Made by a program: the position numbers and the translations under genes. DNA of 64,000 nucleotides. Source: a virus. The DNA lies in IMG/VR virus record IMGVR_UViG_3300031705_000001, positions 85,990 to 149,989 of that record; one strand, written 5' to 3'. A model generated the notes under the pieces. The model did not search any database, had not been told where the DNA came from, and was given only the letters and a program-made list of their open reading frames with translations. Shown one piece after another: positions 807-62,215 of the stretch (position 1 is the first letter of the stretch; each line of letters starts with the position of its first letter).

Positions 807-2033
807 ATGGAAATAAAAACTACTAAATATTACGATGAGTTTTTGAGATACTTTGAACTTGCTAAGAAACAGCAAGAGCTTAGTAACTTAGGTATTGTAC
901 CACATGAAGAAAGCGGCATGAATGATCCTTTAATGGAACACGTGCACTTATATGATGTAGTGGAAAGAAAATATGCAGGTTTTAGTCAGATCATAAACGA
1001 TTGTTTTTATGGTTGGACAGAAGATCATCCATATTGGGAACACATGAAAGCCGGCAAAATATTCCCTCAAAGAGAAGAAGTTGCCAAAAACTGGACTGGA
1101 AAGCACAAAGACTTTGGATTAGAAGAATGGTTATATCTGTTTATTCTACATCGAGTTTGTGGTAGTGCAATTAATTATGCTACCAAACCATCTGGTTATC
1201 ACAACACAGTTATCTTTGCATTACATGAATGTAAAACAATTGAAGAAATGTGCGAGGTTATTAAATATCATCCTACGCCATTTTATACTTCAGTTGGTTA
1301 TCAGTTTCCAGCATTTCCTAAACCACCAAAGCCTTCAGGTAATGAAGATAGTTTTGTAGGTATGGAATCGTTTACAGAACCTGAATATGTTTACAAAAGA
1401 GGCGGAGATTATTTCTTATGTGAATTTGCACCAAGACTTTCAAGAGACTTAGCTGTCTTTTTAAGAAGTGACGGTAAAAAAGATTTAAGAGAGATCGGAG
1501 AATGGATGTTTAAGTGGAATGCTGATAATGGCCTAAGAGCTTATAGATTCCAGTATGCTGCAGTTCTTGCAGATTTAGCAGATTGGTATCCAGAATATGT
1601 AAACAGAGAATCAATGTTTTATTATGGTACAAATGCAGTAGAATGCATTGGATATCTTGCAGATCCTGTTGAAAAGAAAGGTAAAAAGAGTGAAGAATTC
1701 TTGGATGCAGTAATGACAAGAATATACGAAGATACAGGAAGCTTACCATATAATGCTGAAGATGTAGCATGTGATTTTATTAGATGGATTGAAAACTATT
1801 TAAGACCGGGCGCGGCATATAATCATATAGACTTTGATGGTATTTGGAACAGTTCATTTATATTAGATCATCCATATGGAAGACAGAAAGCGATGTTAGA
1901 ATTAGGTCTAGTAGACACATTCAATGGTATCACATCATTTCCATCAGATGACAAAGTTATAGCATCTGTTAACCTAACGGCCGCCGAATATAAAAGCAAA
2001 ATAAATAGTATACTACCAACGACATATGAATAA
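807..2033 (+). CDS. Large conserved phage protein, candidate DNA base-modification enzyme
   Basis: A 408-aa protein. Conspicuous blocks are LHRVCGSAINYA followed by SGYHNTVI (about residues 113-136), YTSVGYQFPAFPKPP, and ESMFYYGTNA. The pattern RxxGSxINY...GYxNT recalls the amino acid:DNA transferase and thymine pyrophosphorylase groups described from thymidine-hypermodifying phages, but this is from memory and unproven. The next gene shares the weak pattern AxxxAxxxPxxVxxESxxxxGT, so the two may be distant paralogues. Its last 8 bases overlap the next start, implying translational coupling. The following genes (LOG, PLP-fold, dUTPase-like) fit a nucleotide or base-modification pathway. Alternative: an unrelated replication or recombination protein. 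Confidence 0.45.
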   Translation: MEIKTTKYYDEFLRYFELAKKQQELSNLGIVPHEESGMNDPLMEHVHLYDVVERKYAGFSQIINDCFYGWTEDHPYWEHMKAGKIFPQREEVAKNWTGKHKDFGLEEWLYLFILHRVCGSAINYATKPSGYHNTVIFALHECKTIEEMCEVIKYHPTPFYTSVGYQFPAFPKPPKPSGNEDSFVGMESFTEPEYVYKRGGDYFLCEFAPRLSRDLAVFLRSDGKKDLREIGEWMFKWNADNGLRAYRFQYAAVLADLADWYPEYVNRESMFYYGTNAVECIGYLADPVEKKGKKSEEFLDAVMTRIYEDTGSLPYNAEDVACDFIRWIENYLRPGAAYNHIDFDGIWNSSFILDHPYGRQKAMLELGLVDTFNGITSFPSDDKVIASVNLTAAEYKSKINSILPTTYE

Positions 2034-3165
2034 AGAACAAGAATTGGAAAAGGATACGAAACTTATAATTGAATTTAATCCAAAAAATGGTTCAAGTAAT
2101 GCAAACTTTTTAAAAAATAGTTTGTTTGAATTTAACGGAAATGACAAAATGAACAAACACAATATATCATATAAAGGCACTTCTGAAATCCTAATGAAAA
2201 AGGGAAAACCAATGGAAAGTTGGATGAAGGATTGGACTCAAGAAGAAAGATTTGATAAATTCTTTGAATTCTGTCATGCTTTTGATAAGAGACAAGACAG
2301 CTTACTTTTAGAAGATTACCAAATATTCTCACATAGATTACACTGGCATGAACATCCATATTGTTATATGATGAAACATGAAACAGATTTAGAAAAGCTA
2401 TTATATTATACAATAGTATTTTCTTTTAGTAATGAACATTGGGGAACTATTAATAGATTGATCAATGACGGTGAAGTAAAAACAAGAAAACACTTTGTTG
2501 AAAACAGACATGCTCGTAATGATCTATTTCAAATATATTATCCAAAGGGCACAATAGTTAAGGATTGGTTATTAGAAGGACCTAAAAAAGCAGCCAAAGA
2601 TATGGCTCATATTTTAGAGAATTTAGAAAGACCATACACTATGATGGAATTTGCTAAAATATTAGAAGCTTATTTTAAAGAACATCAAAACTTTAGAAGT
2701 CCATTATATCCATGTAAAAACACTGCAAGATATGTTGCAATGAGTAGACCGGATCTAGTTGATCCAGAATCAGTGCTTTTTGGTGGAACTGGACATTTTG
2801 ATGGTATGATGCAAATCTTTGGAGGACCAAACTTAAATGGTAAAGTAAAATACTCAATTGACGAAGATGGTCAATTTATAGCAGAGAATAAACATGCTGA
2901 AGAATGGATTAGACAAATGCAAGTTTTATCAGATCATCCAAGTAATCCAATGACTACTCAAACGATGTTAAATGTAGAGGATAAAACATGTTTTTTTTAC
3001 AAACACATCGCAATCAGTCATGGTATTAAATCTCCCACTAAAAGAATTCCATATACTTGGATCTTTGATGGAGCATTTAATTTAGCAAAACATCCAACAG
3101 AGGATGTTATCGTAAACGCAGAAACAACACGTCACATTTGGGGTAAGAATTACCCTAACGAATAA
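2026..3165 (+). CDS. Large conserved phage protein, possible paralogue of the upstream gene
   Basis: A 379-aa protein overlapping the preceding gene by 8 bases. Notable segments are HRLHWHEHPYCYMM (about residues 105-118, His/Trp/Tyr-rich), PLYPCKNTARYVAMSRPDL and SVLFGGTGHFDGMMQIFGG; the last resembles the glycine turn of helix-hairpin-helix DNA-binding folds. The region AMSRPDLVDPESVLFGGTG can be laid over ADWYPEYVNRESMFYYGTN of the upstream protein, suggesting common ancestry. I tentatively place it near the glutamyl/putrescinyl-thymine pyrophosphorylase-like enzymes because of this motif and its neighbours. No catalytic residue can be named with confidence. Confidence 0.42.
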   Translation: MNKEQELEKDTKLIIEFNPKNGSSNANFLKNSLFEFNGNDKMNKHNISYKGTSEILMKKGKPMESWMKDWTQEERFDKFFEFCHAFDKRQDSLLLEDYQIFSHRLHWHEHPYCYMMKHETDLEKLLYYTIVFSFSNEHWGTINRLINDGEVKTRKHFVENRHARNDLFQIYYPKGTIVKDWLLEGPKKAAKDMAHILENLERPYTMMEFAKILEAYFKEHQNFRSPLYPCKNTARYVAMSRPDLVDPESVLFGGTGHFDGMMQIFGGPNLNGKVKYSIDEDGQFIAENKHAEEWIRQMQVLSDHPSNPMTTQTMLNVEDKTCFFYKHIAISHGIKSPTKRIPYTWIFDGAFNLAKHPTEDVIVNAETTRHIWGKNYPNE

Positions 3166-25317: not shown

Positions 25318-27378
25318 ATGAAAAATACTAACGATTTATTAATCGTCGAGATGTCTTCATCAGCTCTAAGTGTAACAACTTCAGAGAACAAAGATTACAT
25401 TCTTGAAGGTATTTTTGGTCAAATCGATCAAAAAAACAAAAACAACCGTATATACACTGAGTCGGAGTATGTTCCACAAATTGAAGCATTACAAGCTAAA
25501 ATTAAAGCTAGTAAGTTATTGGGCGAATTAGATCATCCTGCACAATTTGACATTTCTTTAAAGAATGTATCACATATCATTGAAGAACTTGTATATGACA
25601 AAGATAGTAAAGAAGTAAGAGGACGTATCAAATTATTAGATACAGACGCTGGAAGACAAGCTAAAGCTTTAGTAGATGCTGGTGTTCCTTTACAGATTTC
25701 ATCTAGAGCTGCAGGTGCAGTTGAATCTAACGGACAAGTAAAGATTAAACAATTATTTACTTATGATCTAGTTGCTGATCCAGGTTTTGAAAACGCAGAG
25801 TTAAAGAGAGTTAACGAAACGTATGGTTATTCAAACGCAGGAAATTTAGCAATTTACGAAATGAATGGCACAGAAGCTATTGATAACCAACCTATTAAAA
25901 ACACAAACACACAAATAAAAGAAAATAAAAACATGGCAGAATTTGTAAAATCCGAGGATTTCAATAAGTACTCTGAGTATTTGGCGAATGAGATCAAGAC
26001 ATTAAAAGAATCTATCGAAACTAAAAATGAAGAAGTTTCAGAAGATAAAACAGTACAAAACTTGAAAGATCATAGTGATCACGTTGTAGAAAACGTTAAT
26101 CAATTAACAGAATACGTAGAATACATCGCTGGTAAATTAGACGATAACATTCAATATTCTGAACATGTTGCTGAGAAAACAGATCAAAGTATTTCATATG
26201 CTGAATCTTTAGCAGAAACATTAGATAACAATATCTCTTATACAGAGCATGTTGCTGAAGCAGTTTCTAAAGTTAAAGACTTCGCTAATTATTTAGCAGA
26301 AGCACATAACGAAGGAAGTACTTCTCACGAATCTTTATTAGAGTATGTTGAATACTTAAAAGAAAACTTACAATCAGTTTCTGAATATGCAGAGTATATT
26401 GCAGAATCATTAAACGAAACAGTTATTGAAGTACCAGTTAACGCTGAAGCTGAAGAAACTGAAGAGGAAGAAGTTGAAGCAGCTGATAAAGTTGAAGGTG
26501 AAGAAGTTGCTAAAGAAGTAGCAGAAGCTGAAGCTCCTGCAAAAGACGCTGACGAAGCTGAAGAAACTGAAGAAATCGAAAACATCGGTGATAATTCTGA
26601 AGAAGGCGCAGTAGCTGCTGATTCTGATAAAGCTGGTAAAGAAGTTGAAGAAATCGAAGGTGAAGAAGTTGAAGCAGGAGATAATTCAAAAGAAGGTGAT
26701 ACTAAAGGTGAAGTAAATGGAGAAGACGCTGAAGATTTAGAATCTGACGCAATTAAATCTGATTCAGAAATTGAAGCAGAAACCAAAGCAGCTAAAGCTG
26801 GTGAAGGTGAAGAAGAAACTGAAGGTGAAGAAGGAGCATTAGATCCATTAGAATCTTACAAAAGCGAAATCTCATCTAAATTAGATAAATTAGTAGAAAA
26901 TGCTACAGCAAAAGAAAATGAAAATCCTTCATTCTTTAGAGTTGTATCATCTACGACAAGAGAAAAGTATAACGCATTAAATGAATCAGCTAAAACAGAA
27001 GTTAGAAATACAGTTTCTCAAAGAGGCTTTATGACTGAATCTGAAATCTCATCATTAATGAATAACGCAGAGCTTATTGTTGAAAACAAAGGTGCACAAC
27101 CATTGTTTATTACTGCAATGCCAGCGGAATACAGCGCAGCATGGGAAAACTTATCTGAATCTAAACAGAATCAAATAACAGCACAAGCTAAATACCACTC
27201 ATTAAAAACTGAATACCAAGTTGCTAATTTCTGGCAAACTAGAGACTTAAGAGATACTAAAGTTGAAATGGAAAAAGTTGCAATGGTAACAGAATCTAAG
27301 GATGAAGCGCCTAAATCTACCATCGGTTACGATGTTACAGAAATGGCTGAAGCATTCAAAAAGAGATTTAACAAATAA
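25318..27378 (+). CDS. Prohead protease fused to scaffold core protein (gp21-gp22-like)
   Basis: A 686-aa fusion. Residues 1-190 are a prohead serine protease: GELDHP (catalytic His 73) and LQISSRAAG (nucleophile Ser about 128) followed by YDLVADPGFENA. Residues 206-400 are a long coiled coil built from repeats of YxExxAExLDxxIxYxExxAE type, then a very acidic Glu/Ala region (about 400-515) and a C-terminal helical domain, as expected of a gp22-type scaffold. An internal ATG at 25933 (residue 206) has the phage's typical A-rich leader, so a free scaffold protein is probably also made from the same frame. T4 keeps these as two genes. Confidence 0.88.
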   Translation: MKNTNDLLIVEMSSSALSVTTSENKDYILEGIFGQIDQKNKNNRIYTESEYVPQIEALQAKIKASKLLGELDHPAQFDISLKNVSHIIEELVYDKDSKEVRGRIKLLDTDAGRQAKALVDAGVPLQISSRAAGAVESNGQVKIKQLFTYDLVADPGFENAELKRVNETYGYSNAGNLAIYEMNGTEAIDNQPIKNTNTQIKENKNMAEFVKSEDFNKYSEYLANEIKTLKESIETKNEEVSEDKTVQNLKDHSDHVVENVNQLTEYVEYIAGKLDDNIQYSEHVAEKTDQSISYAESLAETLDNNISYTEHVAEAVSKVKDFANYLAEAHNEGSTSHESLLEYVEYLKENLQSVSEYAEYIAESLNETVIEVPVNAEAEETEEEEVEAADKVEGEEVAKEVAEAEAPAKDADEAEETEEIENIGDNSEEGAVAADSDKAGKEVEEIEGEEVEAGDNSKEGDTKGEVNGEDAEDLESDAIKSDSEIEAETKAAKAGEGEEETEGEEGALDPLESYKSEISSKLDKLVENATAKENENPSFFRVVSSTTREKYNALNESAKTEVRNTVSQRGFMTESEISSLMNNAELIVENKGAQPLFITAMPAEYSAAWENLSESKQNQITAQAKYHSLKTEYQVANFWQTRDLRDTKVEMEKVAMVTESKDEAPKSTIGYDVTEMAEAFKKRFNK
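25933..27378 (+). CDS. Nested scaffold protein from an internal start (gp22-like)
   Basis: In-frame ATG at 25933 inside the protease-scaffold gene, preceded by aataaaagaaaataaaaac, which looks like every real leader in this genome and is more A-rich than the surrounding coding sequence. The product (481 aa, MAEFVKSEDFNKYSEYL...) is exactly the coiled-coil plus acidic scaffold part. Such nested scaffolds are known in other phages. Only protein data could confirm its use. Confidence 0.6.
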   Translation: MAEFVKSEDFNKYSEYLANEIKTLKESIETKNEEVSEDKTVQNLKDHSDHVVENVNQLTEYVEYIAGKLDDNIQYSEHVAEKTDQSISYAESLAETLDNNISYTEHVAEAVSKVKDFANYLAEAHNEGSTSHESLLEYVEYLKENLQSVSEYAEYIAESLNETVIEVPVNAEAEETEEEEVEAADKVEGEEVAKEVAEAEAPAKDADEAEETEEIENIGDNSEEGAVAADSDKAGKEVEEIEGEEVEAGDNSKEGDTKGEVNGEDAEDLESDAIKSDSEIEAETKAAKAGEGEEETEGEEGALDPLESYKSEISSKLDKLVENATAKENENPSFFRVVSSTTREKYNALNESAKTEVRNTVSQRGFMTESEISSLMNNAELIVENKGAQPLFITAMPAEYSAAWENLSESKQNQITAQAKYHSLKTEYQVANFWQTRDLRDTKVEMEKVAMVTESKDEAPKSTIGYDVTEMAEAFKKRFNK

Positions 27379-57249: not shown

Positions 57250-57651
57250 ATGAAAGAATTATATTTACTAAGAGGTTTACCAGGATCTGGAAAAACAACA
57301 CTAGCAAAATCAATTGGAGGAATCCACATGGAAGCAGATCAATATTTTATGGAAGATGGTGTATATAACTTTGATGCAACCAAATTAAAGTTAGCACATA
57401 ATTACTGCCAAAATCAAACTAGTGCATGGATGAAAACTGATGGTGAACAGGTTAATGTTGATAAAATTGTTGTTTCAAATACATTTACACAAGAATGGGA
57501 AATGAAAGCATATTATGATCTTGCAAAAGAACATGGATATACTGTGTATTCTTTAATTGTAGAGAACAGACATGAAGGTGAAAACATTCACGGAGTTCCA
57601 GTTGAAGCGTTAGATCGAATGGAGAATAGGTTTGAAGTCAAATTAAGATAA
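57250..57651 (+). CDS. P-loop kinase, polynucleotide-kinase-like
   Basis: A 133-aa protein. RGLPGSGKTTLAK (8-20) is the P-loop; HMEADQYF holds the base-binding Asp and NTFTQEWEMKAYYDLAKEHGYTVYSLIVENRH the Walker-B-like strand and lid Arg; NIHGVPVEALDRMENRFE is the conserved tail of this group. The family includes the 5'-OH kinase domain of T4 Pnkp, but the phosphatase domain of Pnkp is absent. It lies 2.2 kb from the RNA ligase; together they could repair or mature tRNAs, which is inference. Confidence 0.75.
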   Translation: MKELYLLRGLPGSGKTTLAKSIGGIHMEADQYFMEDGVYNFDATKLKLAHNYCQNQTSAWMKTDGEQVNVDKIVVSNTFTQEWEMKAYYDLAKEHGYTVYSLIVENRHEGENIHGVPVEALDRMENRFEVKLR

Positions 57652-58939: not shown

Positions 58940-58961
58940 TGTTCTTTGACATATTGGTAAT
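58940..58961 (+). promoter_or_regulatory. boxA-like antitermination leader, copy 1
   Basis: GTTCTTTGACATATTGGTAAT. The core TTCTTTGA matches the rRNA-operon boxA (TGYTCTTTRA) that recruits NusB-S10. The same block recurs at 60398-60420. It lies 6 bases before the first tRNA. Functional assignment is inference. Confidence 0.55.
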
Positions 58962-58966
58962 GAAAT

Positions 58967-59939: not shown

Positions 59940-59999
59940 AGAAGTGGTCGGTGAAAGCTGTACAGTACAAGCATAAGGTTCGAATCCTTACACTTCACT
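59940..59999 (+). ncRNA. Minimal tRNA-like RNA without D-arm
   Basis: GAAGTG (59941-59946) pairs with CACTTC (59991-59996); a perfect T-arm TAAGG-TTCGAAT-CCTTA precedes it; between lie only about 27 bases, with one hairpin GCTGT/AC(A)AGC and 5-nt loop ACAGT. There is no D-arm and no 7-nt anticodon loop. It sits among normal tRNAs. It could be a decayed tRNA or a tRNA-mimicking RNA. Confidence 0.5.
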
Positions 60000-60397: not shown

Positions 60398-60420
60398 ATC
60401 TTTGACGTATTGGTAATAAA
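60398..60420 (+). promoter_or_regulatory. boxA-like leader, copy 2, with trailer-complementary segment
   Basis: GATCTTTGACGTATTGGTAATAAA. TATTGGTAATAAA (60408-60420) is perfectly complementary (13 nt) to TTTATTACCAATA (62499-62511) after the last tRNA. Leader-trailer pairing of this sort brackets rRNA precursors for processing. Confidence 0.55.
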
Positions 60421-60425
60421 AAATA

Positions 60426-60568
60426 AGGTTCCTTACAGCAAACAAACTCTATAAGGAAACTGCTATCGCAAGATGTGTAGGTTCAAGTCCTACCTCCCTA
60501 ACAAAATTAATACAAAATTAGGGAGTGGTGGAATTGGTAGACACGGCAGTCAGAAACAATAGGAACCT
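60426..60568 (+). tRNA. Circularly permuted tRNA-Leu gene (3' half before 5' half)
   Basis: The 3' half comes first: ACTGC (anticodon stem, 60459-60463), variable arm TATCGCAAGATGT, T-arm GTAGG-TTCAAGT-CCTAC and acceptor CTCCCTA (60494-60500), then A and a 17-nt A/T linker. The 5' half follows: acceptor TAGGGAG (60519-60525), D-arm GTGGAATTGGTAGACAC and anticodon stem GCAGT (60546-60550). Acceptor strands pair over 7 bp and anticodon-stem strands over 5 bp. Both halves match the normal tRNA-Leu genes nearby. Flanks AGGTTCCT (60426-60433) and AGGAACCT (60561-60568) are perfectly complementary and would hold the open anticodon ends together. The mature anticodon depends on the unknown joining points. 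Confidence 0.8.
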
Positions 60569-60576
60569 GTTAGTAT

Positions 60577-60664: not shown

Positions 60665-60760
60665 ATAAGAGAAGCAAGTGAAGCTGATTAAATTGAGATC
60701 AAGGTAAAGGTTAACCTCTCATTCATGCAGTAACCTCGAAAGACCCGAAGCTTCTCTTAT
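60665..60760 (+). ncRNA. Structured RNA element B with 11-bp closing helix
   Basis: ATAAGAGAAGC (60665-60675) pairs perfectly with GCTTCTCTTAT (60750-60760). The interior holds GGTTAACC and the motif GCAGTAACC (60727-60735), shared in form with elements A and C. No ORF; lies exactly between tRNA-Leu and tRNA-Arg. A T-rich end makes it also look like a very long-looped terminator, but the interior motif argues for a stable RNA. Confidence 0.55.
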
Positions 60761-60841: not shown

Positions 60842-60853
60842 CATATAAGAATT

Positions 60854-60908
60854 AGGATGCATGCAGCAACCAAAACCAACTTTATTTAGAAAAGCAAAAC
60901 TGCATCCT
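60854..60908 (+). ncRNA. Structured RNA element C with 8-bp closing helix
   Basis: AGGATGCA (60854-60861) pairs with TGCATCCT (60901-60908); the loop contains GCAGCAACC (60863-60871) within AGCAACCAAAACC, of which the first 12 bases also occur at 59818. The following 60920-60990 holds a further hairpin GGTAGA/TCTACC and no gene. Confidence 0.5.
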
Positions 60909-60994
60909 GTTATTTAAAAAGTGTCTTGCTCCGCTCTGAAGAAATTCAACGACAAGGTCTCGGTAGACAAAATGCATTTGATTCTACCCAAAAT

Positions 60995-61998: not shown

Positions 61999-62073
61999 GA
62001 TCGATTAGCTTAGGGGAAAAGCGATCGGGGAGCAATTCCCGATAGATGATAGGTTCGAGTCCTATATTGATCA
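61999..62073 (+). ncRNA. tRNA-like RNA with GCAA tetraloop instead of an anticodon loop
   Basis: All arms but one are canonical: acceptor GATCGAT/ATTGATC (one G-U), TA, D-stem GCTT/AAGC with loop AGGGGAA, variable AGATG, T-arm ATAGG-TTCGAGT-CCTAT. The anticodon arm is ATCGGGGA (62024-62031), loop GCAA, TTCCCGAT (62036-62043): eight pairs capped by a GNRA tetraloop, with no U33 or readable triplet. The helix is intact, including compensating pairs, so this is not simple decay. It might be charged or processed like a tRNA while unable to decode. Confidence 0.75.
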
Positions 62074-62078
62074 CATAT

Positions 62079-62150: not shown

Positions 62151-62155
62151 CTTTG

Positions 62156-62215
62156 TATGGTAGTAGAAATTAAAGGACTTAACACGCAGTCAGTTCCCTG
62201 TGCTACCATATTTTT
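62156..62215 (+). ncRNA. Structured element D with 8-bp closing helix, terminator-like
   Basis: TATGGTAG (62156-62163) pairs with CTACCATA (62203-62210) followed by T5; the 39-nt loop contains CACGCAG...CTGTG. Either a long-looped terminator or a member of the small-RNA set of the island. Confidence 0.45.

Follow-up and report, generated by a model that had tools for sequence, protein, structure and literature searches.

A permuted tRNA-Leu element in a phage tRNA array is probably a Y-RNA-type noncoding RNA with a Ro60-like protein partner

The tRNA array of a phage, as delineated by ARAGORN, includes an element at positions 60426-60568 in which a permuted tRNA-Leu lies inside an 8-bp outer stem. 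Coordinates are those of the window, the whole stretch of DNA analysed, which is the final 64 kb of a 149,989-base IMG/VR phage record. We think that the element is a phage noncoding RNA of the Y RNA type, a tRNA-Leu mimic tethered to a Ro-like protein, and put the probability of this reading at about 0.78. Y RNAs are known from phages, and the class with the motif UACAGCAA to which the element belongs looks like a variant of them. Its relatives adjoin a gene for a Ro60-shaped protein, and it is thus most likely that we are dealing with a tRNA look-alike held by a protein, rather than with a tRNA that is cut and joined.

The element and its homologues

The outer stem, P1, is formed by AGGTTCCT at 60426-60433 and AGGAACCT at 60561-60568, with 8/8 Watson-Crick pairs as the earlier note had it when it called the flanks perfectly complementary, and the motif UACAGCAA (60434-60441) adjoins its 5' strand. 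The 3' half of the tRNA-Leu domain (60459-60500) follows, and consists of the anticodon-stem strand ACTGC (60459-60463), the variable arm (60464-60476), the T arm (60477-60493) and the acceptor strand CTCCCTA (60494-60500). The 5' half (60519-60551) has the acceptor strand TAGGGAG, the D arm, the anticodon-stem strand GCAGT (60546-60550) and C32. An A/T-rich linker at 60501-60518 bridges the acceptor ends; it measures 18 nt, and not 17 as given before. All of these features are on the plus strand, and both halves are recovered by a permuted-tRNA finder, by covariation and by a covariance model. Swapping the halves restores 7/7 acceptor pairs and 5/5 anticodon-stem pairs, and with this geometry and the conserved homologues described below the claim of a phage tRNA-Leu with its 3' half upstream of its 5' half is confirmed. 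ARAGORN makes no tRNA call on the element in the window, and Rfam at its curated thresholds calls no family there.

We suggest the following arrangement. The 5' and 3' ends of the RNA would pair as P1, and P1 with the single-stranded UACAGCAA would form the binding site of a phage Ro60-like ring protein, the likely candidate being a protein with DUF2828 and the von Willebrand-type domain DUF7788 that is encoded just downstream. The variable part of the RNA would be a closed tRNA-Leu look-alike. This domain must be permuted because it is hung from P1 by its anticodon stem, so that the acceptor ends meet mid-way and the linker bridges them, and splicing would be unnecessary. The tRNA domain may present a tRNA surface to tRNA-binding enzymes, and could act as a tether, a gate or an anticodon-nuclease decoy, as has been proposed for YrlA.

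Related phages with the same order and covarying acceptor strands, which the earlier note had suggested looking for, do exist. Nine homologues (L356, L443, L444, L451, L460, L461, L477, L480 and L316) were aligned with the window, several of the ten sequences being close relatives. Two other candidates were rejected as homologues: the first BLAST match, Pelagibacter phage HTVC011P, has an ordinary intact tRNA-Leu, and the Vibrio K phages have tandem tRNAs instead. The proportion of paired cells is 70/70 for P1, the presence of which was required of the sequences selected, 64/70 for the acceptor stem, 30/30 for the D stem, 50/50 for the T stem and 50/50 for the anticodon stem, the last count being biased upwards as the script put the 3' anticodon strand at its best-pairing position. 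Double changes are present in 3/7 of the P1 pairs examined and in 5/7 acceptor, 1/3 D, 2/5 anticodon and 1/5 T pairs, and in 2,000 whole-strand swaps the observed pairing was reached 8 times for P1, 0 for the acceptor, 7 for the D, 2 for the anticodon and 185 for the T stem. The cleanest test of covariation comes from the acceptor stem, where pairing was not a ground for selection, and the T stem is uninformative. The covariation contradicts the view, which the earlier note had set against its own claim, that the halves belong to two separately degraded tRNAs.

RNAalifold, given seven homologues without the window, recovered P1 and the acceptor, anticodon, T, D and variable arms unaided, with double changes in 6/36 pairs. 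A covariance model (R1) of the same seven homologues, again without the window and with the structure supplied by hand, scores the window element at 146.6 bits with E 1.3e-29; the match that ranks second in the window is 60854-60908, at 18.2 bits (E 0.09). Tandem ordinary tRNAs (L002) score 32.1 bits with R1, whose matches below about 40 bits therefore prove little.

The element belongs to a larger family with the layout of an outer stem, UACAGCAA and then either a permuted tRNA or a short insert. We define class B as P1 followed after 0-2 nt by ACAGCAA, and the window element is in this class. As this definition was made with the window and some other elements already in view, the motif does not count as independent evidence, whereas the stem test does. 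A correctly placed stem of 7 bp or more is present in 99 of the 129 listed matches to TACAGCAA plus a T arm (mirror control 4), and ACAGCAA has an exact 8-nt stem partner in 29/435 occurrences as against 4-14 for ten permuted control motifs. A looser test is weaker, with at least 7/8 pairs at 135/1,388 occurrences of ACAGCA and 50-113 of 882-1,622 for five control motifs. Several of these pattern scans, the earliest of which sought tRNA 5' halves with non-T at position 33, give counts among the matches listed, and no prevalence is claimed. After removal of duplicates, of one element lacking a T arm and of those over 260 nt there are 84 distinct class B elements; a D-arm half is recognisable in 66, of which 51 have at least 6/7 acceptor pairs, as against 5.5% when acceptor strands are swapped between elements.

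The permuted-tRNA finder gave 35 matches in 314 sequences (3.09 Mb, window included), as against 6 when the acceptor strand was reversed and 2 when it was complemented, and since the loci scanned were chosen for odd tRNA halves these counts are no measure of prevalence. Six of the 35 are copies of the window element, one in the window itself and the others in loci that overlap it or are its sisters. In four matches one half or both overlap an ARAGORN call; three of these were dropped and one (in L178) was kept. Removal of the five other window copies and the three overlapping matches leaves 26 elements besides the window, two of them (L178) near copies of two others (L089). They are of two kinds, class B and the class A discussed below, with some that fit neither. 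Short non-tRNA inserts are found in the same outer cassette, and one such RNA is in the window itself at 60853-60909 on the plus strand, with a 9-bp stem, GCAGCAACCAAAAC and a short A-rich insert, where there are weak matches to R1 and to the dictyostelid Class I RNAs. In bacteria 48/117 matches are stem-positive (mirror control 7), of which many are probably due to chance and several look like one protein-coding gene. Class B candidates are also seen in the bacterial assemblies L552 (Sarcina sp. DSM 11001), L518, L519 and L542, where they may represent prophages or misbinned phages, and all four have DUF2828.

The array of the window has other unusual features. A TCTTTGACRTATTGGTAATRAAA box that resembles the boxA-type leader of Bacteroidetes rRNA operons is present in two leaders (58940-58965 and 60398-60422) behind promoter-like A/T-rich DNA, and the permuted element is the first behind the second box. 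There is a short tRNA-like unit at 59940-59998 with a 6-bp acceptor-like stem and a perfect T arm and no normal D or anticodon arm, and the ARAGORN tRNA at 61999-62074 has a four-letter anticodon (gcaa) in an enlarged anticodon loop. The structured spacers at 60668-60759 and 62155-62211 have inverted repeats of 8-10 bp but no ACAGCAA motif, and were rejected as family members.

A partner gene for a protein with a predicted Ro60-like fold

Comparison of proteins in pieces of six carrier records and in the window's record gave two clusters shared by 5/7 of the phages. One is a P-loop kinase and the other a protein of 470-500 residues with the Pfam domains DUF2828 and DUF7788 (in G017, G020, G036, G049 and G050). 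The P-loop kinase-like protein, at 57250-57651 in the window, is as frequent as DUF2828 in this comparison, which is a point against the Y-RNA reading. DUF2828 is in 21/26 carrier records (20 over the cut-off) as against 1/24 comparison records, the latter being drawn from listed matches of the odd-tRNA-half scans and not host-matched to the carriers. The sole comparison record with DUF2828 (L208) has a weak stem-plus-motif candidate. Also against the reading, the domain is missing from five of the 26 carrier records, including records of 137, 182 and 195 kb, which may be incomplete.

By locus, a DUF2828 frame is present in 22/85 of those that are stem-positive, 8/29 of those with the pattern and no detected stem, 5/11 other candidates and 4/227 of all others. 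The 29 pattern loci are probably carriers too, and two of the four other loci with DUF2828 (L247 and L260) are carriers by a looser stem test. In 22/22 cases the gene and the RNA share a strand, and the gap between them has a median of 548 bp.

Neither TROVE nor DUF2828 was found in the window's own record (G000), and for DUF2828 this is because the record ends too early. A near-identical contig, with 2 mismatches in an overlap of 3,575 bp, has the DUF2828 gene starting 2,612 bp past the end of the window and, 297 bp behind the gene, a third RNA of the family. The window ORFs 807-2033 and 2026-3165 had been considered as Ro proteins and were rejected, as neither matched any family over the cut-off. 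Three further window-type homologues, L446, L480 and L461, have DUF2828 in their records; it was not found in ten others, on contigs of 11-72 kb, nor in L005 (80 kb).

With tblastn the DUF2828 protein finds matches in 681 of 50,697 phage records; eight named phages were taken from the best 60 matches listed of the 681. Family candidates, called in these eight at a stem of at least 6 and without a shuffle control, are directly beside the DUF2828 gene in Listeria LP-048, E. coli phiSUSP1, mycobacteriophage LeBron, Enterococcus EF1, Campylobacter CPX and Bacillus FADO, and several kb from it in Vibrio nt-1 and Citrobacter Ci1.

For the DUF2828 protein of the window phage (L059:7269-8708, 479 residues) a structural model predicted from 30 aligned sequences has a mean pLDDT of 88.5. 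In a Foldseek search of the model the TROVE domain (E 3.1e-9) and Ro60 (E 8.2e-7) were the only matches at E of 0.001 or less. A second aligner gave Ro60 (1yvp) a Z of 22.6 with an rmsd of 3.6 over 408 residues, and other Ro proteins Z values down to 13.1, the first unrelated row having 11.5; VIA-align rows are confined to folds ranked by Foldseek, and no fold is taken as absent on that basis. A sequence search of the PDB places an archaeal VWA protein first (E 0.0022) and TROVE proteins next at E 0.18, and with the sequence link to TROVE so weak the relationship of the DUF2828 protein to Ro rests on the fold. PHROGs has the protein as an RNA-binding protein, and many records only as hypothetical. 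Mycobacteriophage records already annotate it as a "Ro-like RNA binding protein", and its connection with Ro is therefore not a new finding.

Class A is defined by a GGGCCGA...GTTAYY-like flank that resembles the Ro60 site, and appears to be a parallel system. TROVE/Ro60 is encoded in 8/10 of the records that have permuted elements with the GTTAYY flank, the exceptions being L100 and L136, and also in the records L041 and L085. DUF2828 is in 0/10 of the TROVE-bearing records, and TROVE (PF05731) is in 0/16 of the records filed as class B and has 0 matches in that of the window. The Rfam YrlA model, with a gathering score of 69, gives sub-threshold matches to permuted elements of both kinds, at 49.1 and 42.5 bits to the class A elements of L139, and at 39.8 bits to an element of mycobacteriophage LeBron that is beside the annotated Ro-like protein. 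Class A arrays likewise carry non-tRNA inserts. In the TROVE/Ro60 phage records L139, L174, L265, L310, L293, L182, L207 and L277 there are Y-RNA-like elements that contain a permuted tRNA domain; some of these are arranged in tandem, and in some the anticodon loop is intact. A permuted tmRNA family match above the gathering score is present at L174:7254-7478, in a phage whose tRNA array is large.

Joining at the anticodon and other explanations

The earlier note treated the element as a tRNA gene whose halves would be joined by the Rnl1 of the phage, and for this we find no support. Rnl1 (PF09511) is in 2/26 carrier records and 4/24 comparison records, and RtcB in 5/26 and 2/24, so that neither ligase is linked to the family and both were rejected as a necessary partner. 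No bulge-helix-bulge is present at the break in the window, where 25 and 10 nt separate the anticodon stem from P1. For this stretch RNAalifold gives a single hairpin, on the 5' side, which is broken in some homologues. The non-tRNA inserts and the Ro60-like partner also count against joining by Rnl1.

Joining is nonetheless kept as a rival because many relatives retain decodable anticodon loops. In 27 of 49 testable class B elements joining can give a complete anticodon stem together with T33, R37 and A38, as against a mean of 0.6 (maximum 4) with shuffled upstream sequence and of 11.4 (maximum 16) with swapped 5' tails. These loops count against a pure mimic, which need not keep them. However, intact joinable loops are also found in 5 of the 18 flanked class A elements (mean of 0.3 and maximum of 2 in the control), in a test that allowed more 5' tail than that for class B, and so they occur in Y-RNA-type elements too. 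Recent origin from a tRNA, selection to keep a complete tRNA surface, and joining could each explain the loops.

In this rival a genuine permuted tRNA gene would give a precursor that is cut at the anticodon arm and sealed by a phage or host ligase. RNase P and a 3' nuclease would take out the linker to leave a decoding tRNA, with P1 and UACAGCAA as the splicing signal. Many isotypes occur among the relatives, and in the window joining of C32 to U33 gives a 7-nt loop with the anticodon AAG, all of which is in its favour. But A34 is unusual in bacterial tRNA-Leu, and the array already encodes tRNA-Leu genes with TAG and TAA according to ARAGORN. In L316 and L461, as read from the alignment, joining restores no leucine anticodon. 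The conservation of TATAAG in the homologue set is no evidence on this point, because TATAAG was part of the search pattern. The break points vary, the same cassette has non-tRNA inserts, no ligase is linked to the family, and class A, mostly with an encoded Ro60, keeps some intact loops as well. We think it unlikely that the element is such a gene. A bolder proposal, that the UACAGCAA cassette and the Ro-like DUF2828 protein form a tRNA-maturation platform on which permuted pre-tRNAs are kept in place during sealing of the anticodon arm, so that decoding tRNAs result, and that with the likeness to dictyostelid Class I RNAs this would be an ancient RNA-protein pair of phages and amoebae, we also regard as rather doubtful.

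Two other explanations were considered. Duplication of a tRNA-Leu in tandem and loss of the outer halves is a plausible origin for the order, with the halves complementary by descent, and the element could then be a decaying relic with no function. This we consider hardly credible, given the compensatory changes (5/7 acceptor pairs, with 0/2,000 swaps matching), the enriched stem-plus-motif flank and the conserved neighbour gene. The element could instead be a decoy for anticodon nucleases or tRNA-directed defence, with or without the Ro-like protein bound. Relatives with intact anticodon loops would suit this role, and YrlA of Salmonella has been proposed, in the part of the paper available, to be a competitive inhibitor of an anticodon nuclease (PMC7790460); the Leu type of the window, however, lacks an ordinary anticodon loop, and we take this explanation to be very improbable.

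A Y-RNA-type RNA held by the DUF2828 protein would account for what had appeared to be an impossible tRNA gene, and for dozens like it that are not called by ARAGORN or by Rfam at curated thresholds. It also provides a searchable signature for likely RNA partners of the DUF2828 family. It would make testable in laboratory phages both the role of Ro-type particles during infection and the question of whether permuted tRNAs with intact anticodons are joined.

Comparison with known systems

Y RNAs of bacteria that contain tRNA-like domains have already been published, as have mycobacteriophage Y RNAs (PMC7790460, PMC12282133 and PMC7765460, each seen here in part). In the titles and abstract beginnings searched, under permuted tRNA, Y RNA, YrlA, DUF2828 and Ro60 and with partial coverage, there is no description of the UACAGCAA class. 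Three features of Y RNAs are found: paired ends and a conserved motif that would be the protein site, a nearby protein with the Ro60 fold, and a tRNA-like domain. The likeness is to the YrlA type (RF02553) with its Ro60/Rsr protein, in which the ends also pair in the protein-binding stem, as they would in the phage RNA. Further points in common are a permuted tRNA-like domain hung at the anticodon position, sister RNAs with no tRNA, and an RNA gene beside that for a Ro-fold protein, which for the window phage is seen on the sister contig. Unlike YrlA, with its CCGA..GTTAYY site and TROVE partner, class B has UACAGCAA as its site motif and DUF2828/DUF7788 as its partner, and the two kinds segregate in the records tested. 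The window is not matched by the Rfam YrlA model even at E 10, and its relatives are below the gathering score; we have therefore filed the RNA as Y-RNA-type and not as RF02553.

In LeBron there are three family candidates right behind gp53, one of them a permuted tRNA, and the mycobacteriophage Y RNAs beside the "Ro-like RNA binding protein" are possibly of the very same class. In Listeria phage cka15 the Ro-like CKA15_055 was detected in purified virions, according to the accessible text of PMC12282133. The most highly transcribed ncRNA region given there (26,236-26,727, next to the array) does not belong to the family, and so that paper gives no direct evidence of expression. TROVE proteins of jumbo phages are mentioned in the available part of PMC7824862.

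The permuted tRNA genes of red algae and archaea also have the 3' half before the 5' half and a linker between the acceptor ends, but the phage element differs from them in having no bulge-helix-bulge at the break.

The dictyostelid Class I RNAs (RF01414) provide another comparison. They have a short stem that joins the ends, an 11-nt motif (Rfam consensus CCUUACAGCAA) behind its 5' strand and a variable remainder, and they share with the phage RNAs the stem and the UUACAGCAA core. RF01414, with a gathering score of 41.5 bits, gives sub-threshold matches to 60427-60569 (20.4 bits) and to 60855-60909 (26.2 bits, E 0.083), and both show a layout of stem and CUUACAGCAA-like motif. Unlike the phage RNAs those of the amoebae are eukaryotic, and the part of PMC7919456 available mentions no tRNA domain and describes Class I RNAs as unique to Dictyostelia. 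The likeness of phage RNAs to RNAs reported only from those amoebae is a further lead.
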